Assembly (NCBI GenBank): GCA_000310025.1
Contig: FN649730.1
Span: 299,041 to 363,040 of the forward strand
Reading direction: 5' to 3'
Length of the DNA: 64,000 nucleotides
From: Ectocarpus siliculosus
Taxonomy: Eukaryota > Sar > Phaeophyceae > Ectocarpales > Ectocarpaceae
In this document: piece after piece, positions 4,617 to 56,000 of the stretch
Position numbering within the stretch: the stretch's first letter is position 1
How the letters are laid out: every line of letters begins with the position of its first letter
The notes under the pieces: generated by a model
Told to the model about the DNA's origin: nothing
Database searches by the model: none
What the model saw: only the letters and a program-made list of their open reading frames with translations
Position numbers and translations under genes: made by a program

Positions 4617-4660
4617 CTGACGTCTTTTCATTGGCGAGCCGGTTAGCGCTGTCGATTCTA

Positions 4661-4709
<49 letters not shown>

Positions 4710-30870: not shown

Positions 30871-33800
30871 ATATCGATTTGCGACGTTCCGGAAGGGAAT
30901 GCGCTATGAGGGGCTTAACGAGAAATTGTGGAACCTTCATCAGAAAAAGGTCGTGAGATCTGGACTTCCAGAACCCGACGAAATCGGAAAAGGTCGTGAG
31001 ATATGGACCTTCAGAACCCATACTAAACAAGGCAGCGGTCGTGATTCTCAGCGGCCTGGTAGGTAGTTGAGACCCGAGTTGCCGACCTATAACTTGTGTC
31101 GCCTCGCGACCTGCGCTTTTCATTTTTTGTTTATTTATTTGATCCTATTGGCAGTGGTAGAAACGGTTCACCATCATAGTCAAGTGTTCCCAGCGACCGC
31201 CATGACAAAGGTGTTTCGACAAGGCGGTTACTTTCGAGGCTTACCTTCTTCACGGGTCGGATTCGTTTTGTGGTAGAGCATGAGCGGTACGAGGTATCGT
31301 GAGGGATGGGATGGGACAAGACGAGCCTCGCCATGATCGCAAAGGCTGTCTTAAGACCAGCTTGACACCACGGGGCCAGGAAAGCTACCGCGGTGGTAGC
31401 AGAAAAATGAACTTCTCTTGGCTCCAAGTGCAACATCGCTGCGACAGCGGCAGTATTTGCCCCCCGAAGCATTCCGCTCCAGGCCAAGCCTTTGCCTAGA
31501 GAAGAACCCGCTGGTTTGGGTCGCGTGACTCGCTGTACTTGTACAATGCCTTGCCTTCGAAGGAAAGCCCGGACATGATCCAGACTACAGTCCGAGCTTT
31601 GTTTTTGCACGGAGAGTTTGCACTATTAGACACAAAAAAGCTTGGGTCTCCATCATCGACCTAAGTTCACTTTTTCTGTCCCTGTCATTTTCATAGTTAA
31701 GGGTGTGCGGTAAAGAAGAGGGGTCGTGGACAGACAGTTTTTGTGTTGTTTTCTCCGAGCCTGTCCTCCCGTCGCGACGGGGGCAAGAGGGCGGAAGGCG
31801 TGAAAAATCACGAGCAGATGAGTAAGAGCGAATTGATAATTTATCTGATTGTGTGCTTTGCCTATAGTGTGCGAGGGGATTTGGAGGGCGGTAGATGGCG
31901 TGTTTTTCGGTTGGGAGCGGTGGCGCCATGTACCCTTCTTTGTCTAGGGTGCGCTGTACGTTGCTGTGTCCTGCCCTTCTTGGTTGAATGAGCAGCTGGT
32001 GATGATGTCGGAGATGGGGCGATATCTGTGCAAACCTGTTGGTTGCCATTTCTTCTACTCTACAAGTGTAGCACCTCGGCGCGTGTGTTGCATTGAGTGT
32101 GGATCATTCATGCTTTTTTTCGGGAAACTGGATTTTGTCTAGCGGTTATTAGTGGCGTATGAAGTACGGTCGGAAAGTTGCAGCAGCAGGCGTGGCAGGT
32201 TTTTACGAAGGGATTGAGCAATAGAAGCAGCGTGGGGACCATTCAAAAGAAAGCGTGTGGGGGCCAAATCGAGCAGCGTGAGGTAGTTTTTCGATTCTTT
32301 CGCCGGGATGCCAATCATTGGGGTTGACAACTTGGCGAGGTTTTTTTGAGCGACAACGCTTCATCTGAATTCATCTGAACGAAAAGACGGAGATATGTTA
32401 TCATCATTTCTGGAATTAATGAAGACGATTGGTTTCTTCGGGCTGCCTGCGCTTGATGCGTCTGGTGTGAAATGTCTTGAAAACACGTGCGTGGTGCACC
32501 TGAACCACAAGTCCGGGAAGATTTCCGACCCTTTCCATCTTCCCGCGTTGTTCACGAACCATCCGAAGCCACGTACGCGTTGGTTTCTGCAAACATGACA
32601 CACTCCACCTTCTGCCTGGGCACGTTTGCCTAGGTAAAATTTGCCACTTTACCTACGCATACGTGCGTGCATGTCCGGTTTGTCATTACAACCTTCGGGC
32701 GCAAAACTAGTCGTGAAGTGTACCTCGCTGGCTAACCCTATAGACCAAATGTCTTTCGTTTGAGTCATCCTTGATCGACCTCTCCATGGATTTTTTCTGT
32801 TTTTCGTGTCGCGTTTATGATGTGAGTGTCTTGTTTTCGGGTTGGCTCGTGACTCACTGATAATCGCTTTGCTTTCTTGGGAGAATGGGGAGAGGGAAGA
32901 GAGACAGATGTAACACTGTAGATGAAAAACCTAGTGTGGAAGACGCCAACATCACAGCAGCAAGTGTCAAAAGAAAAGCATCAACAGTTGTTGGAGTGTT
33001 CATGGCCGTTTGTCCACCACTTCTCGACATGGCACCAATCGGCAGCACCCATCCGCAGGCATCCTACTCGGATGTGCTCAACCCTTCCTTCATAAATATT
33101 TCACTGTCCGCGGGGTTTAAGGCTCCCTTGCCACATTGTCTGACTGGCATCCTTTGCACAGCGCCTCGTACCTCGTTCTGCCTGCGCTGCTCTTTGTGGC
33201 GACGGTGTTGAAGAGGGCTTCATGCCGAACACAAACACGTGAAATCTATCCCAACGATTTTGAAACAAGAAAACACACCGAAACACAGAAAGCTGGGTAC
33301 CACTAGACTAGGCTTATATGCCATTTTTTTGGGGGGGTGGGATACCGAACGGCAGCCGAGCAAAGGTCCAAACCTCACCCGCCCTTGGCGGTTTCGCCAG
33401 GACAAACACATCTATATGTCGACACAACAGGGGTGAACACCACTAACCAACACGAATGTGAAGTTATCTCGAGGGGGTCGCCTCACGAACGGCCAACACC
33501 AGCTCAGCACTCTGGCTCTATCCCCGTCATGAGAAAGAAAATAAGTCAATGGATGCTCTACAACAGCTAGAGAGACCGATCTTTGTTGTTTCTCCGTGCA
33601 GAAAGGCTCTCGCGACGACCACTCGAGGTTGTAGTGAAGCGTTTTTCCACGATGTGGCACTACTAACCTCCTCTCGCTTGACATCTCCCTTAAGGGCGGG
33701 CGAGATATCCCACCTTCCTAGTCACACCTCCGCTTCATCTCGAGCGTTACCTGCGAATGAAAGCTTTTACAAACTCTTGGCATCCATCCTACAGTATGTA
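30871..33800. other. convergent intergenic region, no gene recognised
   Basis: This lies between the stop of the FET-like gene and the stop of PLC-like copy A. A roughly 34-bp direct duplication (GGTCGTGAGAT, then AGAACCC) occurs at 30943-31020, probably in the FET 3' UTR. A 67-codon plus frame at 32395-32598 (CLENTCVVHLNHKSG) is the only other notable frame and is unassigned. Confidence 0.4.
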
Positions 33801-36800
33801 TCACCACCCTTTGGGGTAAGCTCCTGCCTCCCTGGCAGCGTTTTCAAGCTGGTCCGCTTGCTTCCACATTGCGGCAGCTGTGAGCGCGTCGATCTCGTCG
33901 ATGCCGCCGGTCAATGTTCCTTCTTGACCCTCTGATGACAATTCTAATAGCTCCGCCTGCGCATTGAATTTTGTTCATGTGTGGCAAACATTCACATGTA
34001 CATTTTCTGTCGACCGTGGTTTTCATTGAATTTCGTTGTGAGTATACAAAATCATAGCGGAGGCTGCGCCCGCCAAACAGAGTTCGTCCCAGAGGTCACT
34101 GCGGAGGTACCTGTTACATCCGATATTTTCCCCGACTTTCCTGTCCAAGAGTCTCTACCAGCATATTTTTCATTGGTTTCCGGACGTACGTGCGAAAAAC
34201 TATCGCTATGAACATCGCCGGGCTAGACCAGTCCAAAAGACTCGTCCGGGTCCTTAGCTATCATTTTCGTTTTATTGCCTTCCCCGTAGCACGCTTATAT
34301 TTTCATAATTTGTCGAAATAGTGAGAACAATCAGGAATAGGAACCTGGGACTTCGGGCTCCATGTTTGTTTGCGGGTGGACTGTATGCAAACAACGACGA
34401 TCGAAGACGTTCGACAAGTACATGCCGCAGCTATCTTTCCATACATAGCAACAGCAACAGGTGAATCTGTTCTTGTACTTTTTTGCATCATTTTCACACG
34501 ACAGACAGAGAGTAGAATGAGTGGCACAAGCGGCAAGAGTCAGCCAGTGCACGGAAAGGCGAATCGGGGCATATGCATGAAGGTCCGTAGGTGTAAAACA
34601 TTGGGTCTCCCACACTTTCTACAGTTCCCAAACGACCCATGGGACTCCCATGGGTGACCCATGGGACGCCCATGGGCCGCCCATGGGCACCCCGTCACTA
34701 CAAGTAGGCTTCCCATGAGTTTCCCATGGGTCACCCATGGGCATGCCCGTCAACCGAACCAGTGGACTCCTAAACAATAGATTATCTACTGTAACGGGCA
34801 CGATAGCGGCCAACAACCCTAACGCTAACCGTAACCCTAACCCCAAGCCCACACGATACGTGCTAGCTAGGTTGGTGCTTGTGGCTAAGTTCTAGGTTGT
34901 TAGGCCGGTGGCGAAGTTCTAGGTTGAAGTGCCCACGGTGGGCACTTCATGGGCCGCCCATCGGTCGCTCATAAGCATGCCCATGGGTCACCCATGGGCA
35001 GCCAGCCCATGGGCAGCCCATGAAGTGCCGATGAAGTGCCCATGGGCGGCCCATGGGTGACCCATTGGTGTCACATGGGCGGCTGAACGAAACTGTCAGT
35101 AGTGTGGGAGATTGAATATATCAGGGGAGTCAGTGTCTAGGAGTCGATTTCAAATCATTTTGAGCCGTCCATGATGATTATTTTTTGTCTTCCAGGTGGG
35201 AGCTTATGAGTTGAGAACGACGACCAGACGATGGGTGCGAACTCCGAGCGACCATCATTGATAGAAGGCCCCCTAAACAGCACGGGAGCAGAAATGCAGC
35301 GTAGTCTGCAAGTGCGGATAGACCACAAACATGGATCGGACCGACAGCTGAAAAAACTGTGTCGACGTGACGGCACAAACGAAGTTGCCTAGCACCACAC
35401 AAGCCAACAATATCGCGGGCTACAATAAACTTTGCTTTCCTGTTCAGATGTACCGTTTTTCTTTGTGACCCATGTTGCCATCAAAGGAACAAACAGGAGC
35501 AGCCGTAACGACTACAAGAGCGCCATACCTCGGCTCGTAAGGCTTGCGCTTCGTCCTTGATACGCTCGGCTTTGTCATAAAATGCTCTGTCTCCGTACGT
35601 CCATGCCTCGTCCGCGTTCCACGTAAAGTCAGCCGCTCCAGAGTAGCCATCACCGTCGCATGTCGCCTGCTCAACCATGGTACACAGCCATTCGGCATCA
35701 TCATCAGTATTATTGTGAAGGCAGAGCAAATCTTGTTGTTTTGGTCGAGGAATAGCCACAACCGCACCAACAGCAACAACAGCAACAACAACGACAACAA
35801 CGACCGTAACAACAACACTTGTGGCGAGGTGGTAGGCGAACGGTTTTCTGCATGAGTACATGTAGGCCTTGTTCTCCTTGATCTGATACACAGCCAGGAA
35901 GGCCCCCGGGCGCATTTTGGGAACATTCGATTTCAATAAAGCACCAAGACGATAATCGAGGAAAATAACTTGACGAAAGAGTGCGAGGAAATGAACATCC
36001 TGTAACCACGATGGATCTCGAATTACTGTCATCCAGGTGCGCCCGAAACAACAGCTTTCTACCGTCGCTTCGGTAGACAGCTTTGCGCGGCAGAGGTTGC
36101 CAATCCTGACCTCAAGCGATTCAAGCCTACCCTGTCCCAAAGTGAATGTCAAGGGCAGCTGCTATTGTTATCATACCTCGGGCACGAGACTGGCTGCGTT
36201 GTGTCCACTTGTTCAGTCGCAAGGGGGCTGCTGGTTGGAACTGCTTTGTACTGGACCTTCAGGCCCATCTAAATGGGACCCCGACTTTACTTGGGGGAAT
36301 TTCCGTTGGCGTTGGTCCAAGCAGCGCGACTTTCCATGGGTATTTCCGTGCGCGTTGGATCCAAACAGTAGGCAAACCCTACTCTATCGGCCTCGAGACT
36401 CACGTGGGTGTACGTGGTCGGGAGGGTGTAAGCAACTCCCGATTCGCGCGCCCAGCTGGACGAAAGCGCCCCTCCCGGTGACAGAAGGTTGACCCAAGCG
36501 TCCTTCACGCCCACCTGTCGAAGTACACATAAACACAAAAGTCACCTGTGCTTACAGAACCCATCTATCCGACGTACTATCGGGCGATGAGTTGAATAGC
36601 CCAATAGCGGAAACATTTTGGCGATGCGTACCGTTTGCGGTTGGCGATACAGGTTTTAAAGGTGTCCCTTCTTTTACGTTTAAGAATTCATCTCACATCT
36701 GCACTTGAAAATGACTCGAAAACAATTGAAACGACCTCTCGGGTTTTGGAATGGATGGGGAAGGCAACCAAGTGAGAGATTTTACATCGATGATCTGCGG

Positions 36801-39800
36801 ATGGACCACAGGCGAACAGTCTAGTTCGAGTTTTGACGTCGTTCGGCACCGTTTACGTGGAACGTGCAAAAGTGAAGCGCACACAGTACAGGAATGAAGT
36901 ACGATAATTGAAATGGGCGGTGTCTATAGGAAAGGGGCTGTGATCTGTCGAGCAATTATGCACGTTGGTTACGTTGACAAACATGGATCATTCTACGTCC
37001 AAGCGGTTTCTGTCCACTTAATGTCTCATGGTGGCTGTCAATATTAGATAAAATAAGACCATCTGATCAGTCAACGTTGACTGATCAGATGGTCTTATTT
37101 TATCCAATAGTCAAGCCCGTACAAACGGCCACAAACAAAATTATTTCACTCACGTCCGTCATGGAGACCCTGAGGGCGGCATTCTCTTCAGCTGTGCGGG
37201 GACAGCCGAACACCAGCCCCTGTGAGAGACAGACCAGCTCGGCCGCGCTAAAGTACCCAGCAGCCCCGCTCGACACTACCCACTCGCCCCTCTCCCCTGA
37301 ACCTGGCAAAAGCGAGGAAGTGAAGCGATTGAACCCAATTTGCACGGATTCCGGGTACCTCCGCGCGCCTGCGCAAAGAAAGTAAGGTACACTACGAAAT
37401 GCGACCAGGGAGGGGGCGCGCAGACCCTAACCCTAACCCTAACCCGACCCCAACTTAGCCGATTCTATACTATATCCAGTATATTTGCGGGCTTAGAAAA
37501 ACCTGCGTAGACTATTGTTGCGCTACCAACGATCTCTTGCCATGAAGATTGGCTACACGGTATCATCCACAACAACGTTATTTTGGGTGGCATCCTGGAT
37601 TGGCTCGTTCTCAACAGTGTGTTCTGTTGCAATGCTTCGCCGTTACGCGGTCTGGGTACCTTGTGGGTTTGAAGGTACTGTACCACGAGCTGCTTGACGA
37701 GAACGGCCTGTCTGAATGTAAACAACAAGAACAAGACCAACAAGGATCTCAATATAGTGCGTTGCACTTACTATCGTTGCGACAAGCGTAGGAGTGTATA
37801 TCATCGCTCTCTTCCTCGCTGGTCGACGCAGATCCGCTCGTCCACCTATGCGTGATTGAGACGAATGACACCGACGACAATCATTGGTCGAGACAACACG
37901 TTGTGAGCACCGCCAGAAACGTATGGATACGTGCGCATGATGTCTCGCCACAAACGGGAAACATTATTGCATGTATGTCGTGGTGAAGTAGGAGCTGCGG
38001 GAACGTCTTAGCTGCGGAGACGATGTGACGCCTCAAGGATTTGTTGAGTGTGTGTTTTTCAAGCACACGATTTTGGGGGCGGCGGCAGGGACGAGGCTGT
38101 ACGGGGACGGGGTATGTTGAGGGCGGGGAGATGAATAACGCAACGAAAGAAAAAAAAAAGGTCAGATGTTGGTTGCCCGTTCTTGGTGTGAACCACGGCA
38201 GTCGGGCGCACAAACGGCATCTTAAATATCGCCGTGCACTACCCGGGCAAGGATGACTGGCTGGAGACATTGCGCAATGATTGTTCGACCAAGCACGAAC
38301 AAAGCGAAGATAGAGAGAGAGGGGGAGAGAGAGAGAGAGCCGTGGCATTCATGGTGCTTTCTCGGGCCGCCCTGAGACCGCCAGAGAGAGAGAGGCATAT
38401 CGAGGTTTCGGCAAGGTCAAAAGCACGTTCAATGCCACCAACCCGGCACCAGCAACACCAACGCCACACGGCCAACAATATCAACGACGGTGGCGTCGAC
38501 GACAACACCACCACCACCAACACCACCACCAACAACCACAACAGCAAGAACAGGCAAGAACAACAAGAACAACATGAACAAGAATCTGAACAAGAACAAG
38601 AACAAGAACAAGAACACGCGAACAACAACAACGAACCTTCCTGTCTCCTGGTGAACCACGGCAGCGCGGGGGCTGGAAAAGTAGGCGTGGGGCTCGCCTT
38701 CTTCCCAAGACCACATGGTTGCCTCCAGCAGACGGCTGTCCATCCTGTACACGATCGTTTGATTGACGCCGTATGGGATCATGTCGTGTCGATTGGGAGA
38801 AAGTGAGCGGAACAGCGTGATTAAGGCGAGGAAGAGCGTCGAATGAACAACAAGATTGGTGATTGATGGGGGGCGAGGAGAGCAAACGCGAAGGGTATCA
38901 ACTCGTCGTATAGGCCCTGGGAACCTAACGAATAGCTGGAAAAGAATCAAGGAAACATGACCGTTATACCCACAGAACGATTCGCTTATGGCACTGTTCA
39001 ACCACATCGGGGGAATGCTTGTTTCTTGTTGAATGCCCGAAGAGCGACCACATGGTCGTTTTCGCTCGCGAAATCCAACATCTCCGTAAACTGATCCACA
39101 CAGAAAAAGCGAGAAAACACAGGTAAAAAATAAAAATATTTGCTGTCGTCTTTCCTAAAGATGCCTAAAAATAATGATGAAGCCGCGTCCAGCCTTCTTC
39201 AACGAAAGAAAGTGTAATAGGCAGAGCTTATAGCTGGCCCTTATCGCGCTGCTGGCCCAAATCTAACTTTGCATCTCATCCCGAGCAAAAGTCGCAATGC
39301 TGGAGACGTCCACCACTCCTACGAGCTGAGCTGCGAGAGCCGAGCATCTACCTGTCGAAGGTGGGGATTAGCCCGCATTTTAGAGCGTCCATCGCGTCCG
39401 ATGCTCCGAAAAACTCATCGGCTTCAGGCAAGAGCGCGTAGAGCGTAACGTCGGTGTACTCGATGACCCAGGTCGAGGCTTCACCCTGACGTTGATGTTT
39501 CGTATCGTCGTGGTAGGTGTGGGTGCAATCATCGGGGGTGAAAATAAACAACGAGAAATGTACTGGAGTATTCTTTGCCCAGTACTTGCCTGCCCGCCCG
39601 AACAGCAGTGATGCCTACATGTTATGTCCAGATGGGGATCTCAAGGGTGGGGCGGCGACGCGAAATCGTGTTATTGACGGTGGTCAATAGATTTAGATTT
39701 CTGCCAATTGTAAAGGACTATCGATCATACTACCATGAAGAGCGGCTGGTGGTTGGTGGCCAAACTGGTCATGTCGCGAGCAGCCGACTGTGTAGTAATC

Positions 39801-42800
39801 ACCGTGGACATGCTTGAAAACACAACCACCCGAAAGATTTGTGGAAAAGTGAGCTTCGAGCCCCCTGCAACTTTGGCCGTGGCTCAATTTTTGCCCACAG
39901 GCACAGCCTGCCGGCATCTACACTTATCTAGGGCTGTTGATATACCTGCACGCGAGACCACGATGGGCTCCGAGTCCTAGTCGAACAAGGTGCGGAGGTC
40001 CTGAACCGAACTGCAGATATGTTATCCTGCAAGATTCGAGAGGGAGATAGACAATAGTCGTGAGAACGCACAAATTGTGTTGTGCTGTTCACCTGTCTTC
40101 CTCGCTACACAAAAGTTCTCGCTCTGCCAACGGATTAGCTACATTCACAGTATTACGTTCTTCTTTGTCCGTTGACATGCTACTACTGTCGCAAGGCTTC
40201 ATGCGTACCTCGTGGAAGAGTCCGTCAGCGTCGTTCTCTCGACTTATCCTGAACATCGTATCGGCATCCTCCTCGCCGTTCGTGCCGAAGACCAGCCTCT
40301 TGCCCTGGGACACGAGGTACTCCGTGGTCGGCCATTGCTCGGACCCGCTGACTCGTAAAACGTCGATCAGCACGGTGGTTTTCATGAGGCGGTTCGTTTA
40401 ACGTGAGGATCTCGTCGTTCGTTTGCATAGCCATTGAGCGTCCCGCGTGCTGTCCGTGTGTTTGGTCTCTTTTCTACAAGTCGGCAGCAACAATAAGCTC
40501 GTTGTTCTTCGAGCGCAGTTGACGCTCTTTCGTGTTTGAGTGGGATTCATGATCGATGCCTTCTGGCGAGAGTGGCAGCAGCTGTCGGCTGTCGGCTAGT
40601 TCATGTGGCAAATACGCGAATGCTTGGAACGCCTTGTTCTACTTACAATTATGCGCATGCGTACTTGTGCGTACACCGCCTCCCACGTTCGGAAACGATT
40701 GCACACGTTGTTCAATATACGGCCAGAAACAACATCAACAGTAACAGTAACAGCAACAACTAAAGCAGCAGCAGCACCACCACCACCACCAACGCCATCA
40801 CCACCACCTCCACATATGTCAGATGGTCCACAGCGCAACAACCGCTACAGACGTTCCGGAGAAGCTGTTGATGGAGCCATTTCTAAACAGAAATCGAACA
40901 GGTTTCACCTGATTCTGTTCCACTCGATGAAGTCCAAAGGTCCGAAAACAATTTCCGTTCCGAACACTGTCGTGATGTAGTCGGGCAACAGGCTGACCTG
41001 TGATAGTAAGTAGTTGAGTCGATGACAACACGAACTTTCACACAATGGTGACGAGTGAGGTAGCACGAGAGGTGCCGCCCCGTTCACGCTTTTTGGTGGT
41101 GTTGTGTGTATTAGGTCTTGTGTTCAGGTGGCAGCGAAGTAGCATCAGAAAAGGTGTAGACGCTGTTATTCTTGATCATGGTGGCTTGTGCGTCCACAAT
41201 CGCTAGTCTGCGATGCGTCACGTTCGCTCCCGAGCTGGTTGGTCCAACCCACTAGAAACGTCAACGCCGTTCACATACAGCATCAAGAGAATATACACGG
41301 AGCCGCAAAGAATCCTCCGAATCCAAAATAAAACCACGGAATGGAACAGTATTAGAAAAATTGGCCCCCGTGGTCTAGTTGGTATCCTCGAAACCTTCCA
41401 GAGGCCAGGTCAGCGGTTCGAATCCCGGCGTAAGCGAGCTTTTCTTGCAAAGTGAGTTTTTCTCTCGCTTCCGCTCCTGGCCAGAGGATAGCGCTAGTTC
41501 GTGTGTTCACAGAGGGAAGAGAGTGCTGAACTCTTCTCGCATTAAAAATCGAAGGCAAAGTACCGCAGGAGGGGAGGGTAGAGATGAGCTCATCTGTGTG
41601 ACCACGGAGTGGAGTAAGACGGCACTAAAAAAATAGTCCTGTGAGCGCTGATTTGAAGTGAAGACAAAAAAAAACAAGACGACAAGGTACGACAGACGCC
41701 AGATATCGCAACAGACAGGTGATGACAAGCGATGAAGGGGAGGAAGCTGATGTTTTGGCAGCAGTTGCGTATATGGGAGCATTCTGTTGCGTTGGAAAAG
41801 ACATGTTTAATTGTTTGTTTTTCTACGCTGGGGTTTTATTTGCGCGAAAATTCGAAAATTCAACGTCGACTGTTCCTTCTCGGTCCTCCATTTGGTTACC
41901 TGAAGGACATATCTCCCTCTAGCTCAATCCGTCGATATTTTTGACACGTGTCTGGTCTCTTGCTTTTAGGCACCCCATCTCCTTCGGCACCTCAAACCGA
42001 AACTGAAAGTCATGGTTCCAAGGCGGACACGTCCTCGAAATCGAGAACACAAAAAATAAACTTCTCGGTGGTCATGAACCATCGCAAGTACGGCGCAACA
42101 CGGCGATGGGACTCCAGACAATGGTGCTCAGTACACGAGAGGGCACGCGGAGCTCGTACAACGAGCGTGATAATATGAATCAACGAACCAAGACCGATGA
42201 TGAACAGTTTTGGGCGGAAACCTACCGACACGCTCAACAAACGAGAGCAACACACAGCGCAAAGCACAACAACAACGCCCACGTTATCTCCGGTGTAGTC
42301 CTCGATCTTGATGAAGAGCAGCTCTTCGGAGTTCTCCGGTAAGTCTAGCCAAGCGGAGATCTCATCGAAGGTTTCCTTCAGCGAAGGGGCTGTGCTAGAA
42401 CACCCAGTGTCGTCCCCAAAGTCTTGAATTCCCAGCGCCTGGATATGGGAACAATTGAAACTAAGACATTCCGCCCACCGATTGACGAAGCGTCAAATGT
42501 GGGGGTGAAGAAACAACGCGCCTAGAAACATGCACCGTGCCTGCTGACCCGTTCTTGACCTACAACGCGTCGGTGGCTTTCGTCTAAGTCACACGGAGTA
42601 ATCTCTGTCGAGTTCAAAACATTTTCTTACGTTTGTCTAGATCTCGGGGCAGCAAATGCGATGTGACACTACCATATTGATTTAGATGCCAGCGAGACCG
42701 TTTTATCGGACGGGTCCATGTGGAGTTAATCTCGCGCTTAAGTTTGTACAGATTGATATAAGACGCTTACGTGAGAGCATTAAACTCAGGTTCTTATGAG

Positions 42801-45585
42801 CGGTTAGTGTTGTACGCGGAACCATCCTGTCTCAGGTTACCCTATGGAGAATCTACCGTTCCCGAGCCGAGGATGGTTTGCAGCTGCTTTCCGACGGTTT
42901 TACAACCCTCACAAGCGTTGACCCCGAAAATTCAGGGAGACTCTGGTACCAGAACCATCTGGCGCCGCCAATCGGAAAAAACACCTTCCTCTGTTTTTCA
43001 AGAAAACATGTGATTGTACCCTGTTCTATCAACAGCAACTACTTTTTATTTGAATCACCGCCCACCAGATAGGCCAAAGGTGGGGTAGCTATGGTCATGA
43101 CCGTCGTCTTAGCCGGGGTGCAACTGCCCTTACCTATAGTCTGTTGTCTTAAGTGAGTGTGCTAAGAGAGCGTCCAATCGCAGTAGGAACATCAACAGTA
43201 GGTAGCAGTATTGACTCAATATTTTCGACCTTCCTGTGGCTATGGGTTCGTGCCTGATTCAAAGTTCAAACGCGGCTTCGACAAATCGTACCTCGCAAAG
43301 GTACCATCGCAGACGAGAACACAATTCGTGTATCTCTTGAGCAGATGAAGGGCGGGTGTGGCACACGAGAGTTGCTTCTTCTTGGCTCCTTCCATCCCGC
43401 ATGAGCTCCTCCACGTAGTGGATGTCCAACTGCACAACAACGCAGATGGTAAAGAACAGGCCCAGCCGTCCCAACATTCGGGGTGAAGACAACATCCGCG
43501 AAAGAGTTTCACGTGGGTTTCAAGGCAAAAAATTTGATAGTGTTACCAAGCGTGCCCCTCAATAAACCCATTGGTAGGCACATGCTTCGTGGTACCAGAG
43601 GCAGCGTGCCAATGGGCAAACAGATTGCGTTCTCCTTGCTGCCGCCCCTCGCATGTCCTCTCCGGGATTTTGGTCGCCAAATGTTAGGCAGGGTGGACAC
43701 GAACCAAGTAGTAGGACACTCAATATGCACGCAAGAACAGGTGTAGCCAAGTTGTTAATCCTACTGAGAAGGCTGGCTCGGGGGCTAAATACCTGCAGCC
43801 CGACCTTCCATGTGTGGAACAACGGTCACAGAAGATTTTCTGTTCTTTGTCATACCTCGAGTCCCCTCACTCCAAGGCAGGACAGCTGCTGTGTGAGACT
43901 GTACACCTGATTCGGTACCGTCTTGGAAAAATGGGTGACGAAGAACACAATGGTAGGGGAGAGGTGTTCAGTGGTGATCGAGTTTCCAGGTACGCCACAA
44001 AATTGAAAACTCCATACGGTCATTCATTGACTAGGCAGGGATTCGCTGCGACAGGTGCAGAGCGCACAGGAGTGCGGTGAGTTGCGTGGAGACCCCATCA
44101 ACAACCCGTGAGGCAGAACTCGGCGTGATGGGTCGAATAGAGTATGACGGCTGATCAGGACCTTTTGTGCTGCGTGACTTGTTTCACGAGTCCCCACAAT
44201 CAAAAACAAAACAACGACAAAAATATTGTGCTGATTGCTCACCGGATAAAGAGTGTACTCACACAGTTGCACCTAGAGGCAGGACGGCTACACGACTACC
44301 TCAATCACGGTTTGTTGAAAGCAACAAGATAGTTAGAGTGTCACGCGAAATAAGACATGTAAATATCGACTAGAATCTGTTTGCGAAGTGGATTACTGCA
44401 TTTTACGGCTAGATGCAAACAGAGCCACCCATACGGACTTGCGCCCGACGTAAGCACAACTGAAAAGGACCGTTCTTGTTGTAGTTCCTGTGTCCTGAGA
44501 ATCGGTCCCATTCTCATTGCATCGACCCACAGACTGGAGAGGATACTGGCGACGTCGGCGGCATTGGCAACAAAGTAGCATACCGTCGAACAGCTACACT
44601 TTTCAGTAGCTTTTTACAGCACCGCCAAAACCGTTTCTCACCTCCCATTGCGTGCTCACTCCTGCCTCTTCGGTGTTGTACGAGTTGTGGGTGGCAACCA
44701 TTGGCACCTTATTCAGCGGCATATCATACCTACAACACGTAGAGGTTGCACAAGGTTTCAGACATTGACTATCCAACGTGTTTCCCGTGCTAGCTCAACT
44801 CTCTCCCCCTGGCCTGATCTGTTCCTATTGGATGGTGTCGAGCCACTCAGCAAGTAATCGTCGGCGTCTCATGGCCAAGAAAACCCCACGTACTACACAT
44901 ATTAGCCACAGGGGTAGACAGTGAAATATATACTGTGGTTGTCAAACTTATCATGCAAAACATCACGGGGCCAAATCAGTCAGTTCACGATGAAATGATC
45001 GATGTCTTGCAATCTTTCGGTCGAGGACTTCCAAAACATCACGTCGGCACACGCTCTTCCTGATGATGGAAAATAGCGACATTGGGTACTTCTCGTTGCA
45101 GCATGCATCCATCAGGAGGGCCCTTGTTTTGGATACTCTTGACTCCACGAACCCTAACATCGGGTTAAACAAAGGCGAAAGAAGTAGAACCACAGGCACT
45201 GGCGCAACAACATTGGTTTGGAATGAGCACAATGGCCTGTGCGATGATCCGGAAATATCGCGGAGGTTGACACTGTTATTACTCGGTGCTCCCTTCAAAA
45301 CAGCATCGCAAACGTGACGACAAATGGCGCAGAAATGCACCCAAAACCAAGCGGCGGATCAAACTCGATTTCGTCTTAGAACACTCACGTCAAGAAGCGC
45401 TGCAGGGAGGATGCACGTAGCAGCCAGGGCGACGTGTTCGGAGATTGCGTAGCGGTGCCAAACCCGGTGCCAAAACTTGCCGCGTTCACCACCCAGTACC
45501 ACCACAAGAGTGTCTTTGTTGCGGTAGTCACTGAGGACACAGCCCCCCACCGCCGCCACCACCGTTTATTGGTTTCGACCGTCAT
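33801..45585 (-). CDS. PLC-like phosphodiesterase with C-type-lectin-like region, tandem copy A
   Basis: Fifteen exons give 607 residues: 45389-45585, 44642-44729, 43856-43921, 43292-43429, 42283-42438, 40909-40997, 40209-40347, 39946-40026, 39352-39485, 38637-38744, 37772-37845, 37154-37302, 36404-36514, 35529-35666, 33801-33956. A short hydrophobic stretch (LLWWYWVV) near residue 30 may anchor or export the protein. The X-type fold follows: PMVATHNSYNT (H80, N81), LTQQLSCLGVRGLELDIHY (E117, D119), LVCHT (H141), LFIKIED (E209). These match the catalytic His, Asn, acidic residues and second His of the PI-PLC superfamily. Later, MWSWEEGEPHAYF, HSYACRND, ELVCLSQGLVFGCP and DAWVNLL resemble a C-type-lectin-like fold. 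Bacterial and fungal secreted PLC-like proteins have the same arrangement. Substrate is unknown. The frame appears intact in every exon. The start at 45585 is the upstream Met of the exon and less certain than the rest. Confidence 0.88.
34606..35111. mobile_element. 506-bp CCCATGGG-palindrome element with terminal inverted repeats, copy 1
   Basis: The ends are imperfect inverted repeats: TCTCCCACACT and ACAGTT on the left, AACTGTCAGTAGTGTGGGAGA on the right. Inside are two clusters of the 8-base palindrome CCCATGGG and near variants, spaced by TGA, CGG or CA (about 34635-34745 and 34945-35085). Between them lie a telomere-like segment (34817-34846) and the block AGCCCACACGATACGTGCTA. No coding capacity is credible. 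It lies in the last intron of PLC-like copy A. No target-site duplication is obvious. Confidence 0.7.
37047..37104. repeat. perfect 58-bp palindrome
   Basis: The 29 bases 37047-37075 (ending GATCAGTCAAC) are the exact reverse complement of 37076-37104, with no spacer. It lies in the intron between PLC-like copy A exons 12 and 13, about 50 bp downstream of the donor of exon 12. It could extrude a cruciform or fold as an RNA hairpin. Confidence 0.95.
37425..37445. repeat. interstitial telomere-like CCCTAA repeat
   Basis: Three and a half CCCTAA units lie in the intron between copy A exons 11 and 12. A shorter instance is at about 26817-26828. Confidence 0.8.
38487..38630. repeat. CAA/ACC/GAACAA low-complexity tract in a copy A intron
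   Basis: Triplet and hexamer repeats (ACC, CAA and AAGAAC units) begin a few bases inside the intron after copy A exon 10. A shorter CAA-rich tract occupies the same intron position in copy B near 54725-54785. Confidence 0.75.
41363..41633 (+). repeat. tRNA-like head with Pol III A and B boxes, probable SINE
   Basis: TGGTCTAGTTGG at 41371-41382 matches a tRNA A box and GGTTCGAATCC at 41415-41425 matches the B-box consensus exactly, at tRNA-like spacing. The T stem and the acceptor ends do not pair well, so a functional tRNA is unlikely. Sequence continues to an A run near 41626-41633, consistent with a tRNA-derived SINE. The boundaries are approximate. It lies in the intron between copy A exons 5 and 6. 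Confidence 0.45.
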
Positions 45586-46227
45586 CCGCTACTCGGTTGT
45601 TCTTCCTCCTGCTTGAAGCCCTCCTTCTCTGTGGCCAGCCCCGACGTGTGCCAAGACGTAACACGCACGCTGTCGGTTCGCAAAAGAGTGTCGCTACTAC
45701 GGCGGGACAGGGGAACCTTTTTGGAAGAATCTCCTTCTATGTACAAAAGAGTGATCTTCACGATGTCAAGAGGTCTCCGAAGGCTCGATCGGTGGGGATA
45801 TTGCAGACATTGAGCGCGACACTGGAATGGAGCGCCGGCCGGCTCCTCGATCGATCGTAGTTGACGAATTCTCAGATCACTCGGGGTGGTGCGGGTACTG
45901 TGGTGTATAGACTATACAGAGCGTTGATGCGCGACACGTACCTAAACACGTGCACATGAATAGGTGCATCTCCCGAACCGCTGAGCCCAACCACCTACTC
46001 CCTCTGATCCGTAATATAAGGTCGGAAGGACAACAAGCGGCGGAACTCGAGCCATTGTACTCTTTTTCCGAACGTTTTTTTTTGTTGGTTCTGCCGCCCT
46101 TTCGCGGGAACCGGTGCTTTTGTCATTCCCTACCAAGAAAGGTTGCCCCACCCCAGCAAAAGTCGCTCGAAATCACTACCCCAACTTTGAAGACCCGGTC
46201 AAAAGCCTTCCTCATCTGTGGTGAGGC
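45586..46227. other. upstream region of PLC-like copy A, no gene recognised
   Basis: This stretch should hold the 5' UTR and promoter of copy A. Short plus-strand frames here have no motif. Confidence 0.35.
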
Positions 46228-46613
46228 ATGTCTGCTGCTGGGGGCGCCTCCCAGGTGCCAAAACGCAAGAATTTCACCACGTTGGAAAAAGAGGACGGCA
46301 CCTCCTAGCTGGCAGCAAGGATGGGGTGCTGAGGCGAGGTGCGTACAAGGCAGCCGGTGAGGAGTTCGGCTGCAATTGGAAGACGATTATGAGGTTGTGG
46401 AAGAAGGACGACCAGCAGCGCAAGTCTGGGGTCAGTAACCCCGATTTGACCTCTGGCCGCAAGGGCAGCCAGAAGGGGGTTCCTATCGATGAACTGCGTG
46501 CACGCCTCCGTGAGATCCCGCTGAACGACCGCACCACACAGCGCCGCTCGGGATTCCACAGCCTACCGTGCACCGTAATCTCAAGGCGCTCGGATTGAAG
46601 GCACGGTAACTGC
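46228..46613 (+). pseudogene. degraded Tc1/mariner-type transposase, N-terminal part
   Basis: The frame opens MSAAGGASQVPKRKNF and stops at TAG within 28 codons. A shifted frame then carries GAYKAAGEEFGCNWKTIMRLW, a helix-turn-helix, and ELRARLREIPLNDRTTQRR. A third frame gives PQPTVHRNLKALGLKAR, a second helix-turn-helix, before another stop. The order matches the DNA-binding half of Tc1/mariner-superfamily transposases known in stramenopiles. The DDE catalytic half is not visible. At least two frameshifts and a nonsense codon make it inactive. No terminal repeats were found. Confidence 0.65.
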
Positions 46614-49600
46614 CCCACTTGAGCAAGGAGAAGGCTGCCCGGGGGGGGTCACCAATCCCCCGGCGGTACCAGATTTCGGAGGAGGCGTGGACCAAGGGCA
46701 ACGCAGCGCTCGCGGCGGGGGCGGGGGGTGGGCCGGCTGCGTAGAACGGGACGCGCGAGTACTTTTGTTTTTGCTGCAGGTCGTCTAGATGCGAGTACTC
46801 CTATTCTGTTGCAGGAAGGGGCACAGCGTTGTTCTTGTGTTACTCTTGTCAGTAAGCTGAGGTACGGTAGTCGACGATCGTCAGATTGCTAACAGTAGTG
46901 GTGGTACCGAGGAGGTCTAAGGAGAAGCAAATGAATTGTGGAGCTGTGGTGAAACGATGCAAATCATCTTGAAGACCGGTGAAGACCAGAGTCCTCCGGG
47001 ATACTCATTGTCGAATATGTGCGAGCACTACTGCTGTACTCCGTGCTGTACAGAGAGAAACAATTCAATACCGCCTTGGCGGCGACTTTGCGCTGCCCAA
47101 ACGGTACCCTGACCCCCGCCGAAGTTGATATCCGAGCTTCCCCATCCGACACATGGGGTGCTGCTGTCATGCACAGGCCCGGGAAGCCGTTGTTTGAAGT
47201 CGGGGATGCATCGTTAGAGCCTGCAGTTCCATTCTTCCGTGCCTGCTGGACGGAATACTCAGCCGCCGTAGTGAAATCACGCTCTTTTCCCGTGATTTCA
47301 CTAACCAGGGGATGATAGCGACAACCCCCCTCCCTTTTCATTTTTTTTTTCTCTTTTTTTTCCAATGTCATATCCGATCACGTATCAAAGTTATCCGATG
47401 TCCCACAACCACTACATGGCTTACTATGGGCCATATAGTAGTTATCGACCTTATATCCTGATAATCCTTGTCGACCTTATACTACGGATCAGAGGGAGCA
47501 CGGATGCACGGATGCCCACCCAAACTGTCTTGTAGAGCGTGTAACCTACAGGGGAGAGAGCGCTGCTGAATACTGCTCAGGGAATCGTAGAAACACAGTT
47601 AGCTTCCACTGACGCTATGGATTCGTTGCTGCTGTAGCGTGTCCCAGACTTGTGCAGGGGAGGAACTGTTGCGCGATACATGACTGAGAGAAGTATAAAA
47701 TAGTCTGCCTCCTGCATATGGTATGCATACTGTACAGTAGTCGTGTTGTTGTCCCATGGTAGTTTTAATAGAGAGAAGGGTTCGGCCGTCCCTTTCATTT
47801 GTCTATAGCAGTGAAGTCGATGTGTGTTGCTAAAAAATCATAGTTTTCTTCTGCGAATTGTAGCCAAAGAGAATCAATCTTCCAGAGAGATACATCTCAC
47901 AGTAGTACTTACATGTAGGTGTGCGAGGTCAACCACCTACTACACAAAGTCTTGTACACCGGAGTGGCATCGTGATGATTCGTGGCAAAAATCATGTACC
48001 ATACAACACACAGCACTACTTCTACTCAACACGGGGATGACGTATGGCACGCGTGGGGAGAGCGAGCGAGAAAGAGGTCAAAGAGGTCTGCCGGCCCCAC
48101 GGCAGGCGCTGCATATTCGACACTACAACTGTGCGCCGCTGCCGACCTATTGTTTAGCTATAGAATATCCCGACCTATCGCGAGTTCCTTACCTTGACGG
48201 AGCGAACACGCCTCTCAATCCACTCGCCAACTCTCTGGGCGAGCGCAAGAGAGTGTCGTCAGGTTGTCTAGGGTAGGGGGAGAGCATGGGTGTGTACGTA
48301 TTATCTGAGTATTATTGTGTCGCATATCGTACCGAAACTTTCGAAAAAATATCGTTTGTCCTAAAACCCAGAATCACCCGCTCCCGATCGTTGAACGCCC
48401 ACCCACTCCCGATCGTTGAAAAATGTGTGTAAGAGGCGTACTTCGCCTTTGATCGGCGCACAAATGTTGTAGTTGTATCTATGAACATTGGAACAAGTCG
48501 TGCCCATCAATTGAAGCAAGCAGCATGCCACGTCGGAAAAGCTGGCCGATGGCCGGCGTACATGGTAGATTTGTTTTGTTGAATCGATCCCTTCGACCTT
48601 GTCGCTGTTACTGTTATTATTGATGTTTGTTGTCTTCACCGTGAAAACCATTCGAACCGTGAGAACCGTTCCGTTCTCTTCTTAGAACCTCCTAAATATC
48701 GGTACCGGTCCGACTGACGCGGACGCCTTCCGCGGTCACAAGCCAACTTCCCAACAAGGGTCTACGCTTCTAGAAAACAAGCGAAACAGAACTGGACTCA
48801 GAAAATCCTCAATGAAACGCGATAGCAAATCGTGTTTGACAAACCTTTGAGGTGATCGGACCCGAAAAAAATACGTACACATACATATGAAACAGGAAGG
48901 ACCCATCCAAACAAAAGAAAGAGAACCCATCGCTCCCGCTCTGCACGCGATGAAGTATATTCAAACATAGTCGACCCTGGGAATTTTTGCCACCACCCGC
49001 ACACATTCATCTCACCCCGTGAAAGAGGGAATCATCTTCGAGAGGAGACGGGGGAGGCCTTACACGTTTTAATGGTCTTTTCCACATTGAAGAAACACTT
49101 TTAACTACCCCCGTAAGAAATGACATAGTCAGAGCGTCCCTTGGTAACGGTTGCCCCACAACACGTGGGTGTTTATTGCCCAAATTATTTTCCATCCGTC
49201 ACCCGTCTAGTATCGTTTCCCAGCGTCCACCATATCTACGTTGGAAGGCTCAAAGCTCAGCGATATGTTGTTTCCTCGTTTCGTCCAAAGCACTGAAACC
49301 GCTTGATCGTGATTGCATAAAAATAACAAAATAACCTACTCCTGTAGAACACTCGTTCTCGTATGACTCCAAATCGTAACGCTTAAGCTCGATAGGCAAG
49401 TCCATTCAGAAGATTGAACTGCGAGAGACAACATAGTGGCAACCCCCCACGACTGATCCCCCCTCACCCATTCCGTCTCCAACTTCACCACTTTGCGAAT
49501 CTCTGCGGCAATGGGCTTCTCGACTTTCCATTATATGGCCTTCGGCGCCGTGCGATTCTGGCTGCTTGGTTTCTGCGGGACTCGCTTCGTGCGGATCGGC

Positions 49601-50044
49601 GCTGGTGTAGTTGTATTTCACTCTTGGCGAGCAGTAAAATAACAAATGAAGGCTTTGTTGAACATCTGGTCGTATGTTATTCTCTGCCCGTCTTTTCCTG
49701 GTGGAGTTACGTCTTCACGAGATCTAACCAATGGTGAAAGTCGCTCAGGGTTGCGTTCGTCCTCTAAGAGAGAGCCGATCTCTACCGCGGTAGGCTTGAG
49801 CTGCCACGTCTCTCCTCAGTTCCTCACCGATGAGGGTGCCACATTCACCGGAAACGGTTTTCATGTTCTAGAGTACACCCTCACCCTCTCGGGTAGCACT
49901 TCTAACCCTACCCGTCGGCTTCCGCCTCCTGGTACCCGTCGGCTTCCGCCCCCTGGCTACGCTCTCCAGCTAGTTGATCGTGTCAGCGTGAGCAACCGCT
50001 GGGACTTCCGAGGACCGGGAATGCTTCGCGACATCTTCACGGCA
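46614..50044. other. intergenic region between the PLC-like paralogues
   Basis: No gene recognised. A 24-bp direct duplication (CCCGTCGGCTTCCGCC) occurs near 49910-49957, just downstream of copy B. Homopolymer T tracts lie near 47340-47362. Confidence 0.4.
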
Positions 50045-53000
50045 TCACCACCCTTTCGGGTAGGCCCCGGCCTCCCTGGCCGAGTTCTCAATCCTTTCAG
50101 CCTCCACCCGCATCGCGGCAGCTGTCAGCGCGTTTGACTCGTCCATGTTCGTCGATTCGTCCTCGGATGACTCAGATAGCGCCTCCAAAGCGTCAGCCTG
50201 TTGTTATATTTTTTTCGGGTTATTTCCGTGCATGGAATGTGTTTTAGTTGACTGCATTCCCGCGGTTCCTTCTCCTGTTGCCGTAGACACCATAGTGCAC
50301 ACGAGTTTACCCCATCGGAGATAAGTGAATGCCATGAGACGCGCTTGAGAGGATCATTCACCCCAATTATGTGGCGAACGTCTCAGAGCAATCTTTGGGT
50401 GGGAGTTTAACTATGATTTTCTCGCTAACTTTGGCTTCACTTACAGGTCGGGGTAGGCGGCAGCCCTAGGAACAACGGTAAATCTCCCAGCGTGCAACGC
50501 GACTGACCGATGTATATTGTGGCTTGTCCGTGCTACTGAGTGGCTGGAGACAAGCTTGTCTCCGACCACTTAGTAGCACGGAGCCATAATTCCGTACCAC
50601 TTTTCGGGTGAGTTGCGTAAAGGCTGGTGAGCGCGACGTTCCGTTTGTGACAGGGAATTCGCCCTGGAGCGACCAGTTTCACTTCGTTATCCGCAATCAC
50701 TCGATGGGACGGATGGGTGCCCCTTCAAGCCACTCCAACTGTATGAACTTGTTTTACGCTTTCTTGTTTTCGTTTCATTTGTGTAAATGACCCATATTGG
50801 AAATGAATTCGAGTGTGTATGCATGCGTATGAATTGGAATGAATCAGTACAAGACAAATCCTGGCTAGGTATATGACAATGCAACCATCTCGGGCAACCC
50901 CTTTCCTCAAAGAGCTTGTGAGAGAAACCAAGAGGGACCTTTTGAGGCTTGGTCAGGTGCATTTTTTCGTTTATAGTTGAGGAGAGGGACTGCCCAATCT
51001 CCCATACTACTGACAGTTTTGTTAAACCGCCCATGGGTCACCCATGGGTAACCCCATGGGCCGCCTATGACTGCCCACGAAGTGCCTTCCGTGGGCACTT
51101 CAACCTAGAACTCGCCACCGGCATATCAACCTAGAACTTAGCCATCAGTACATCATCCGAGAAAATAGCCACCCAGCGCCAACCTAGCACGTATCGTGTG
51201 GGCTTTGGGGTTAGGGTTAGGGTTGGCGTTAGGGGTATTAGCCGTTATGCTCCCGTTCCAGAGCAGATGATCTATTGTTACGGAGTACACTTGTTTCGGT
51301 TGAAGGACACTCAATGGCCGCCCATGGGCAGCCCATATGGGTCACCCATGGACATGCCCATGAGCATGCCGATGAGCATGCGCATGGGTCAACCATGGGC
51401 CGCCCATGGGCACCACGTGGTGCTCATGAGTGACCTATGGTTGACCCATGGGTGACCCGTGGGCGACACTTCTGTCGTGCTTATTGAAGGTAAATGTGAA
51501 GAAGCGATAGGTAGCATTCTTGGTGGGACCTGCTCGGAGCTCTACACTTGAGACAAGAGTATGCAGGGCAAGGGTAGATCGGCGAAACACCGGAAAACAC
51601 GTTGTCGGACCAGGAGGACCACACGTACCCGCCTCGGGTCGCAAGCTTTGTGTTTGGGTCTCCTTACGTCACCATCAGACGGCAAGAATAGCATCAAGGT
51701 GAGCGACGACAAAAGCGAGAGCAACGACATACCTTCGATAGTAACTCCGAAGCCTCCGCCTTGATACGCTCCGCCTTCTCGTAAAACGCAGTGTCGCCGT
51801 AGGTCCACGCGTCGCCGGCGTCCCACGTGTATTCAGCCGCTGCAGAGTAGCCCCCACCATCGCACGTCGCCTGTTGGCCGGCAGATGTTATGATTCATGT
51901 TGCTCAACAAGTGAAACACTTTGTTGCTGCTGTCGCAATTGCTCTTGTCGTTGTGTTGCTGGTGGTGGTGTTGGTTTAGTTGATGAAGATGGACTGCACT
52001 CTCTTCGTGCTCTATTCACGTGATCATATTTATTTTATTCATCGCCACTGCTTTAGTCCATATCGCACAGAGACAATATTGTAGCCGCAGGCCACCTAGT
52101 GCAATATGTAAGCATACGCATCAAGGCCATGCCAACTGATCCAGCTTTGGGTTCGATGAAGGCGTAGCTGGCAATGAATCGTAGCCTTGAGACTCACGTG
52201 GGTGTACGTTGTCGCGAGGGAGTAGGCCACGCCCGACTCACGTGCCCAGGTTGATGAAGATGCTCCTCCCGATGATAGAAGATTGAGCCATACGCTCTCC
52301 ACGTTCGCCTGCCGAAGGGCACAAACAATATATTCGTATTTTCGGCACACAGAACCAGCCCATACAGTAACAACGTAGACCCAAAGACACGGGCGGCAAC
52401 ATTGCATTGTAAGCTAATAGTTCAACAGCCGGGTCGGCGTTGAGGGGGTGATATACCGTTTACGCCAAGCCGTCAGCAGTCACTGTCCCAATCAGTGCAT
52501 TCCAGAGCTTCGGAATACAAAACAACAACGTGTTTTACCGGGACGGTGCCTTACGTCGTCCAACCCTTGACTCTGTGAGGACACACTTCATCAGAGTGGA
52601 ACACCTGAATGCGCTCTTCGGTAGCAATTTTTTCTTCCTGGGACCTCCTCTCTGACAACGGCTAGAAGAAGAGCCAATCACCCTGTCTGCCGCCGAATGC
52701 AGTTGAGTTTTAGAAACTGCGTGCCAGACGTTAATGGTGGCCCATGATCACTTGCATCCGCCAGGAGTCCTAGCCCATCACATCTCCCGTTGCTGGTAAC
52801 ACTCACACCAACTGGTTTGGTTGCTCTCGGCCCAGTCACATCCGTTGACAAAATCACTCACATGCGTGCATAACATGCAACCGCCGGTCACTATTAGAAT
52901 TTCATTCGACCACGTGAAAAGTTTGAGGTCGTTTGTGCGCGCTGTTGAAGTAAATGTTAAATACTGAAACGTATGATCGGGGTCGTCCTTGAATGGGTGC

Positions 53001-56000
53001 ATACACTCGTGCGAAACATTGACGTGTTCCATTGACTGCATCCCTGTGATGAACGTCACTGTTGCTGTTGACGTTGTGAACATTTGTCGTGGTCGAACTA
53101 CTCTCAAATGGATGCCATTGGGAACAAAGCGAGTGATCACTTTCGTCGATGACCTGAGGGTATGCTGCAGATTCATATCACATAATTCGACGAAGGAATA
53201 CAGACCAATGCACTCAGGGATTGGGTACATCGGTTGGCTTGAGAAATGTTCATCTGAAATCGCTTTCGATCATTCAAGCTTAATGCATCGGCCCCGTCAT
53301 GAGTGGTCACAATATCGATCTGGTAACCGTTGAGTCACAGCAAAGTGAACCTGTGGTCTTTCGGATGGTGACCGACACACGAAGCAACTCACATCCGTCA
53401 TGGATTCCCTGAGCGCGGCGTTCTCTTTCGCAGTTCGTGGGCAACCGAAGACCAACCCCTGTGCAAGGCAGACCAACTCAGCCGCGCCGAAGCACCCGGC
53501 TGCTCCATTCGACACCACCCACTCGCCCCGTTCGCCTGAACCTGAGGGTGAAAACGTATTTTCAACCTCCAGTGAAATTAGCAACATCGGATTGATATTT
53601 CCGACACTCTGCCATGTATGGTCTTGTTAACATTATCAGGTGAGCCGACGTTGCTCTGGACGATAACCCTCTTTCTCAAAACTAGCTCCACGTCGTTTTG
53701 CCACCCCTCTCGCCGCAGGATGGATGGGGGAGAAAAACCTATTTTCGTTGCCATGTGGCACCTACGCCGAGAAATGGAGTCGACAGATGAAGTTTGGATC
53801 TACAGGTCTTTTCCAGCTTCTGAACACGGTCAAGTCGTGGTTTGCCGACGCTTTCAAAACATTAGAGAGGGAAGCCCTGGGTCGTGCGACTGAATTTATT
53901 CCCATTCATTTGACAAACAAGCGAAATATTGACAAGAATGAAATACAACAACAGCAGCTGCAGCAACAGAGGAAACACCTAACCGCCAACGTCACTCGCG
54001 CTTACTATCATCGCGACATGCGTAGGAGTGCACTTCGTCGCTCTCTTCCTCGTTGGCCAATGCAGACCCACTCGTCCACCTGTGCGTGATCGAAACACAA
54101 GTTCTTATTGATTGGTGTTTCACCCGTCCATTTTCATCCAAACATTTCAAAGAGGATTTCAATGTGCAGATAATAAGGTTAGGACGCACGTCTGGGCATC
54201 GACGGATTATCCTTTGCGCCGGTTATCTATATTGTTAATAGAAGATGGAAAATATTTCGAAATAGACGGTGTCCACATAACTGAAACGGAATTCGGGATT
54301 GCCAGGTAAAGCTTGTCAATATTTCGGGGGGCAGCTACAAGGCTCTCCGGAGGCGGGGTTGGTTGTTAGCAGAGAATGAACGAACCACAAGCAAGAAAAA
54401 AGTATGGGCCGGAAAGATCACAGCGTTCGTCGTAGATCTAGATTGGCAAACATCAGGTAAGGGCCAGGCCAACCCGTGGGAGAAACACGGCCTTGTCTTT
54501 AGGCATGAGCCACATGAGGCCGGGCGATATGTTGAATTCTGATCATCGTGCGAAGATTGGTGAGTCCAAACCATTCGAGGGGATCATTGGAACCTCCTTC
54601 GTGCCTCCCTGAGACCACGGGCAACGCTACTCTGGCCGGCACGAGACATTGGGGAGGTGCTGGGTAGAGGCGGGAGGGGCTTACAGTATCGAACATAGTC
54701 GCAACGGCACACACGAGATATCACCGACGACGACAGCAACAAAGCCACAGCAGCACACAACAACAGCGATGACAACAACGATGACGGACCTTCCTGTCTC
54801 CTGGTGGGCCACGGCAGCCCGGGCGCTGGAAAAGTAGGCGTGGGGCTCGCCTTCTTCCCAAGACCACATGGTTGCCTCGAGCAAACTGCTGTCCATCCTG
54901 CAACGATTGATTGGTTCAAGCAGTGGGACGGTTAGGCCGTGTTATGAGGGCGGCCCGCATCCTGGTCAAAGATGCGCTTGGTCGATAACATGTTGGCGCA
55001 GGCGGAGGCGAACCTAGCTGGTGCTAGTCCGTGGAAGACAACGGCCGACTTCAACAGACCGAAGTGCAGCGAAGTGCCCGTGTGGAGTGAAAGACACTTC
55101 ACACAAGCAGAACTGGAAATTCTTCACGGATACCTGTCGAACGTTGGGATTAAACCGCACTCAAGGGCACTCATCGAGTCCCCTGCTCCGAAAAACTCCT
55201 CGGCGGTCGGTCGGAACTCGTACAGCGTGAGGTCGGTGTATTCGATCATGAAGGTCGCAGCATTACCCTGTTGTCGTGTTCATTTTGTTCACCGGGGATG
55301 AGAGGGAAAACAGAAATGCTTGAGCAAATGACTCATGCCGAGGTTGCTCATACCATGTCTTCAGGTTGCTCATACCTTGGGGTATCACTGGAAATATATT
55401 TTTACACCGCACTCAGTACGCTCCCCAATCAAATGCAGTTGTGTTGCAGTTTGCGGAACACAACAGGTGCTCCGATGATGGACGTTATCGTAGTCGGGAC
55501 AGCCCTCGACCGACGCCAAGGTTTCGTCCGATGAGCGATCACTGTGCTCTCGGATACCAACCGTGACAGTTCGACGTCATTTTCATCGCTCTTCCCCTTT
55601 GTGGTCCACGCTTTACTATGTACTACTTGGTTGCTCTCCTTTTGCCACTCTGGCAGGAGTGGGTATATTGGAGGGTTACGCTACCGCAGAAGGGGAATGC
55701 CTTCATGGGGCTATCACGGAAAGGGTTAAGCATTTCTCTTTCCCGTCGTCGACTTTGACTCCACGGATGAGAGGCATTCCTTTAAGGTTTAGCATGGTGG
55801 TCTATTCTAGTGCTTGCCGCATATATATCCGGCGGTCTCGTTGAACGTAGAACGTTGTATGGGCTCTGAAGAGGCGGTTCGAAACGACCAAATACGATGC
55901 AAGCGACGCACACCCCCGAAAAAAAATATCAGGAACAATTCAAGGTTTTCGTTGCACGCACGCTCAGCTGCTTTCCCAATTTGTTGTGTCCCACTAGGGT

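Follow-up and report, generated by a model that had tools for sequence, protein, structure and literature searches.

Introduction

Target-site duplications of 8 bp point to hAT, KDZ (Kyakuja-Dileera-Zisupton) and a few other superfamilies of DNA transposons, with hAT elements having ends of the form YARNG and a target preference of the form nTnnnnAn. In PMC12730594, 8-bp duplications are described as usual in hAT and as made also by Zisupton. For Ectocarpus, PMC12477816 describes 8 KDZ families with 6403 copies, among them giant families with nested insertions, some of which are wholly non-autonomous. Here we analyze a 64-kb window of the Ectocarpus siliculosus genome (C5:299041-363040, from 189 Mb in 492 contigs; plain positions below are those of the window), containing two copies of a short, palindrome-rich element that lie in opposite orientation, each in the last coding intron of one of two tandem paralogues, A and B. 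The element is very probably a non-autonomous, cut-and-paste DNA transposon resembling miniature inverted-repeat transposable elements (MITEs), its two window copies representing independent insertions into corresponding introns after the paralogues had duplicated.

A dispersed family of short elements

Compared by blastn, copy 1 had its main match to copy 2 on the minus strand (72% identity over 394 columns), and a family profile hit the window at 34603-35114 (plus strand, in two pieces) and at 50995-51464 (minus strand, with an envelope to 51484). These matches bear out the original prediction, made from the sequence alone, of two elements of about 500 bp, rich in the palindrome CCCATGGG and inverted relative to one another in the last intron of both paralogues. 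All 18 exact CCCATGGG sites of the window fall inside the two copies (12 in copy 1 and 6 in copy 2), whereas base composition predicts about 1.1 for the entire window. Copy 1 is full-length, running from a GGG end to a CAA end, while copy 2, which starts at 50995, has kept its CAA end and has a GGG end that is lost or decayed (Table 1).

Searching the genome with each copy revealed 406 first-look candidates for copy 1 and 405 for copy 2, and all 40 candidates scored in each search were matches, 39 of the 40 found with copy 1 lying outside that copy. We examined a set of 81 loci, consisting of the 39 other scored places of the copy-1 search, 20 of the copy-2 search, 20 picked by element ends and both window copies, with seven long stretches kept separate; because it was drawn from the best matches, this sample is skewed to well-kept copies. 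The terminal inverted repeats are 24 bp long and unequal (CAATCTCCCACACTACTGACAGTT and GGGTCTCCCACACTTTCTACAGTT), their outermost three bases being CAA and GGG, respectively. Counted genome-wide at up to 2 mismatches, the 21-base core of CAATCTCCCACACTACTGACAGTT at the CAA end occurred at 88 + 88 = 176 places and the 24-base GGGTCTCCCACACTTTCTACAGTT at the GGG end at 88 + 75 = 163 places, with 0 for each of the reversed patterns used as controls. Both ends were present in 54 of the 81 loci, and these complete elements measure 312-910 bp (median, 474.5 bp), with a longest open frame of 143 codons at most (median, 88).

Complete elements are flanked by 8-bp target-site duplications, with at least 6 of the 8 bases in agreement in 32 of 54 cases and all 8 in 12, compared with 33 of 2862 mismatched pairs of flanks (1.15%) reaching at least 6 of 8. 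Three of the loci (L013, L029 and L037) have flanks that are 81-97% alike and therefore represent a single insertion within a larger duplicated stretch, which brings independent support for the duplication to 30 of 52. With one triplicated insertion collapsed (n = 30), targets lean to NNCNNGNN, base 3 being C in 14 of them and base 6 being G in 15 (p 0.00017), a preference that was chosen after the data had been seen. Pairing of inward-facing ends less than 20 kb apart, among 100 places listed for each end (of the 176 and 163), returned 47 rows representing 46 different pairs, of which 40 rows span 100-908 bp and one is an 8.67-kb element described below. The other six rows (five pairs, 6-18 kb) were considered as long elements and read as chance, each using the end of a short copy.

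Judging from these features, the family is a dispersed, short, apparently non-autonomous, MITE-like DNA transposon with terminal inverted repeats. The original prediction had recognized no matching family and had proposed a genome search with the element; this search has now defined dispersed relatives, ends and 8-bp target-site duplications, so that the element is settled in kind, as a terminal-inverted-repeat DNA transposon with 8-bp duplications, if not in name or superfamily. In practical terms, the ends and the duplication length let annotators delimit complete copies.

Insertion history in the paralogous introns

Paralogues A and B lie in tandem on the minus strand and share 15 matching stretches, 72-88% identical, which we read as putative exons. 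They had been labeled PLC-like, a tentative name given that the Pfam PI-PLC-C1 match has an E value of 0.019 and reaches 14.5 bits where the cut-off is 29.9. An element that predated their duplication should have copies diverging about as much as neutral gene sites. At fourfold sites (406 codons; 10 of the 15 exon pairs used, the 5 with doubtful frames or gene ends being left out), the paralogues were identical at 82 of 155 positions (53%; Jukes-Cantor distance, 0.74), whereas copies 1 and 2 have an identity of 0.799 over 288 aligned columns (Jukes-Cantor distance, 0.23). When the last introns were aligned outside the element, no match was better than E 0.37 on either strand, and the flanks thus give no sign of having been inverted together with the element. 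The copies also differ in their distance from the intron donor site, at 414 bp for copy 1 and 248 bp for copy 2.

Double insertion and a flip had both been put forward to explain the inverted pair, and these comparisons favor the former. In a flip, a single ancestral insertion would have been duplicated with the gene, after which recombination between the terminal repeats would have inverted one of the copies. This history would account for the occupation of the corresponding intron in both paralogues, involves inverted repeats that could recombine and agrees with a tree test, given below, that does not reject the two as sister copies. However, it requires an element as old as the duplication, in conflict with an identity of 80% between the elements and 53% at fourfold sites, and it has to contend with intron flanks that are unalignable and with a below-average number of shared derived bases: copies 1 and 2 have 2 in common over 288 columns (0.7%), which is the 39th percentile of 2701 family pairs, compared with 1.1% for the average pair. 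With an element that appears far younger than the duplication of the genes, a flip is not the best reading, and we consider it very unlikely.

Relationships within the family bear on another possibility, in which the second copy arose after the duplication by exchange between the paralogous introns, through gene conversion or ectopic copying of either copy. Family members have a mean pairwise identity of 0.813 (s.d. 0.041), to which the 0.799 of the window pair is close, and by identity the window partner ranks only 51st and 48th among 73 relatives. The nearest copies elsewhere reach 0.88 and 0.885, compared with 0.80 between the window copies, and in a tree built on 73 of 74 element cores, copy 2 falls within a 7-row clade (98/89) that does not include copy 1. 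The proximity of the paralogues and the matching introns would suit an exchange, but each copy is nearer to copies elsewhere than to its partner, no alignable flanking intron sequence accompanied the element and the positions within the intron differ, all of which makes such an exchange extremely improbable.

Several results weigh against two independent transposon insertions, including the palindrome conservation and the transposase searches reported in the sections below. Under an approximately unbiased (AU) test, a tree uniting copies 1 and 2 in a single clade was not rejected (p 0.197, with a log-likelihood 21.5 lower), and the bootstrap of the tree had not settled. For the three loci that go back to a single insertion, pair identities correspond to the 98th, 66th and 94th percentiles, and because a true one-insertion pair can reach only the 66th percentile, the identity and shared-base tests are weak. 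The 8 bases flanking copy 1 match at 5 of 8, which is not a clean target-site duplication, and for copy 2 a search at 51401-51800, allowing up to 1 mismatch, found no second copy of its 8-bp flank. The coincidence itself is also uncommon. We took the copy number as 255-406, obtained by dividing the 176 places by the fraction of copies having the CAA core at up to 2 mismatches (27/39) and extending up to the candidate count of 406; the resulting density of one copy per 467-743 kb corresponds to a chance of 0.2-0.3% for a second copy in a given 1.5-kb intron and of 0.4-0.9% for two or more copies in 64 kb. Such coincidences should arise over all paralogue introns and transposon families, and this pair was singled out after it had been seen.

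Given weak identity tests and a sister grouping that survives the AU test, the conclusion is therefore carried by the divergence and flank arguments, on which two insertions after the gene duplication fit best. Mechanistically, a transposase made elsewhere would bind the element ends in trans, probably helped by the CCCATGGG palindromes just inside both ends, which are often 11 bp apart; the element would then be cut out and inserted at a staggered 8-bp target, giving rise to the 8-bp duplication. As orientation is free at each insertion, the opposite orientation of the two copies needs no flip. Two independent landings in matching introns of old duplicates would be fairly ordinary, and a puzzling inverted pair is in this way explained without a new mechanism, by repeated landings of an abundant short transposon in old paralogues.

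Table 1 Positions of the element copies, their parts and the host paralogues in the window
Feature	Position	Strand	Remarks
Copy 1, complete 512-bp element	34603..35114	+	both 24-base ends without mismatch
GGG terminal repeat of copy 1, GGGTCTCCCACACTTTCTACAGTT	34603..34626	+	exact match
Left CCCATGGG array of copy 1	34636..34741	.	first five sites on exact 11-bp step
Telomere-like stretch with CACACGATACGTGCTA block, copy 1	34817..34865	+	conserved across family
Right CCCATGGG array of copy 1	34980..35057	.	site positions
CAA terminal repeat of copy 1, CAATCTCCCACACTACTGACAGTT	35091..35114	-	exact match
Copy 2	50995..51484, high end approximate	-	CAA end with 1 mismatch in 21-base core; GGG end lost or decayed
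Telomere-like stretch with CACACGATACGTGCTA block, copy 2	51185..51235	-	sequence match
Last coding intron of paralogue A, holds copy 1	33957..35528 (1572 bp)	-	GT-AG
Last coding intron of paralogue B, holds copy 2	50198..51732 (1535 bp)	-	GT-AG
Paralogue A, extent of conserved exons only	33800..45448	-	matching stretches
Paralogue B, extent of conserved exons only	50044..61886	-	matching stretches

Other repeats were also observed in the window. A 56-bp palindrome (89%) occupies 50527-50582, in the same intron as copy 2, and one of 68 bp (97%) lies at 37042-37109. At 63668-64000 and running past the end of the window is an inverted repeat (L095, C5:362708-363094) with 134-bp arms that are 99% identical and about 119 bp apart, which looks like another hairpin or terminal-repeat element. 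A 130-bp tandem unit is found at 4617-4971, with a related piece 20 kb away at 24840-24929.

Internal structure

Complete elements contain 2-17 CCCATGGG sites each (mean, 7.6; n = 54), amounting to 409 sites in 26,796 element bases compared with 4 in 35,722 flank bases. Successive sites are often regularly spaced, with 147 of 355 spacings equal to 11 bp, 44 to 22 bp and 10 to 33 bp, and they are concentrated in both subterminal parts, on either side of a core that includes a telomere-like stretch. At least one perfect CCCTAA occurs in 60 of 74 cores, three or more in a row in only 3, and a CACACGATACGTGCTA block, with up to 2 mismatches allowed, is present in 66 of the 74. Genome-wide, (TTAGGG)4 occurs 143 + 173 times, with overlapping registers counted apart, and one listed run (C3:3073801-3073842) falls within an element copy (L015). 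Paralogue A has a further telomere-like CCCTAA run between two of its exons (37425-37448), outside both window copies.

Across the aligned core, the consensus base was carried on average by 0.907 of the sequences in the palindromes (where the alignment of the arrays is loose) and by 0.608 in 15 spacer columns. The corresponding values were 0.915 for the telomere-like stretch, 0.948 for the block that follows, 0.934 for the end and 0.888 for all other columns. The spacers thus stand out as variable, while the palindromes and telomere-like stretch are only slightly above the rest of the core. Since CCCATGGG columns barely exceed the remainder in this respect, the reading of the arrays as binding sites rests on their spacing and placing.

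Conservation of the telomere-like stretch and palindromes relative to the spacers is also what would be expected of a host regulatory or telomere-derived sequence that is kept in the intron by selection and is not mobile. The rest of the core is conserved about as well, however; the ends are dispersed over far more than a hundred places and come with 8-bp duplications, and all but one of the 40 places scored in the copy-1 search are elsewhere in the genome. As an account of origin, a host sequence is largely refuted, and we regard it as highly unlikely. An unlikely proposal is that the family represents a lineage of DNA transposons, with 8-bp duplications, in which a transposase outside the described superfamilies reads CCCATGGG on one helix face and the telomere-like core is no mere passenger but a working part, for example as a landing site for telomere-repeat-binding proteins. 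The family offers a compact test case for the role of phased palindrome arrays at transposon ends and for the spread of telomere-like stretches to internal chromosome sites.

Longer relatives and transposase searches

The 8.67-kb element (L060) has both family ends, an exact 8-bp duplication (CGACTACC) and long CCCATGGG arrays. A young repeat is nested at about L060:1226-2474; it has 230 first-look candidates in the genome, and scoring 40 of them revealed 39 other places that are 95-99% identical, while a related stretch (L061) apparently has none at the corresponding position. The right end of the 8.67-kb element was observed to be palindromic (L060:8606-8947, 93.6% over 342 bp, flanking sequence included). 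Close relatives of the interior are found at C83, C9, C33 and C24, with another at C16. The C24 relative (L085) spans about 4.9 kb and also has both ends, its CAA end with 5 mismatches, but no matching 8-bp duplication, and in the stretches at C9, C83, C33 and C16 at most one element end was found.

Open reading frames (ORFs) of these long relatives were compared with Pfam, in scans that did not include L062 and L086. Scanning 8 of the 15 longer ORFs of the 8.67-kb element revealed nothing at E up to 1, and no transposase was recognized among 79 of the 165 ORFs of at least 75 amino acids from five long-relative loci, where the 86 left out include some longer L061 frames. Six single weak hits among the 79 ORFs (best E 0.0029, PAN_3) were read as chance. 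At the level of the genome, no match was found to the KDZ, CxC2 and IS1595 Pfam families. For KDZ, PF18758 and PF18803 matched neither this genome nor any control genome; for Merlin, the IS1595-type DDE family PF12762 had no match here and matched one control, although exon-split or weak matches can escape such a search.

Comparison with known systems

The 8-bp target-site duplication is a point of likeness to hAT, whose transposase has 20 matches in the genome. Among the 8 hAT loci fetched and examined, none had good family ends on both sides of the gene; one (L087) is cut by a contig end, and in another (L091) a family end lies by itself, 2.4 kb away from the hAT match. A third (L090) has two 11-base end matches, each with two mismatches, bracketing the hAT gene, a pattern rejected as being at chance level (an estimated ~1.6 such matches per locus) and accompanied by no CCCATGGG. 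Full hAT elements were recognized at two of the loci (L088 and L093), where a transposase match is accompanied by an exact 8-bp duplication; these two elements end in TAGGGTTG and TAGTGTTG, unlike the CAA and GGG ends of the family. The family likewise differs in its targets, which lean to NNCNNGNN and not to nTnnnnAn.

A KDZ-type partner is a plausible guess by analogy: the duplication length would be that of Zisupton, and the nested insertion of the 8.67-kb relative would recall those of the giant Ectocarpus families. The family may well already stand, under a number, in the Ectocarpus transposon library of PMC12477816. Among the publications listed in literature searches we found no description of the element family, no transposon paper by title among the matches listed for the string CCCATGGG and no MITE described with such ends, arrays and core.

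Overall, the closest likeness is to MITEs, which the family resembles in being short, dispersed and without long open frames, in having terminal inverted repeats and a target-site duplication of fixed length, and in having longer relatives that share its ends. Unlike MITEs in general, it has outermost three bases that are unequal (CAA and GGG), dense palindrome arrays that often follow an 11-bp step and a core containing a telomere-like stretch.

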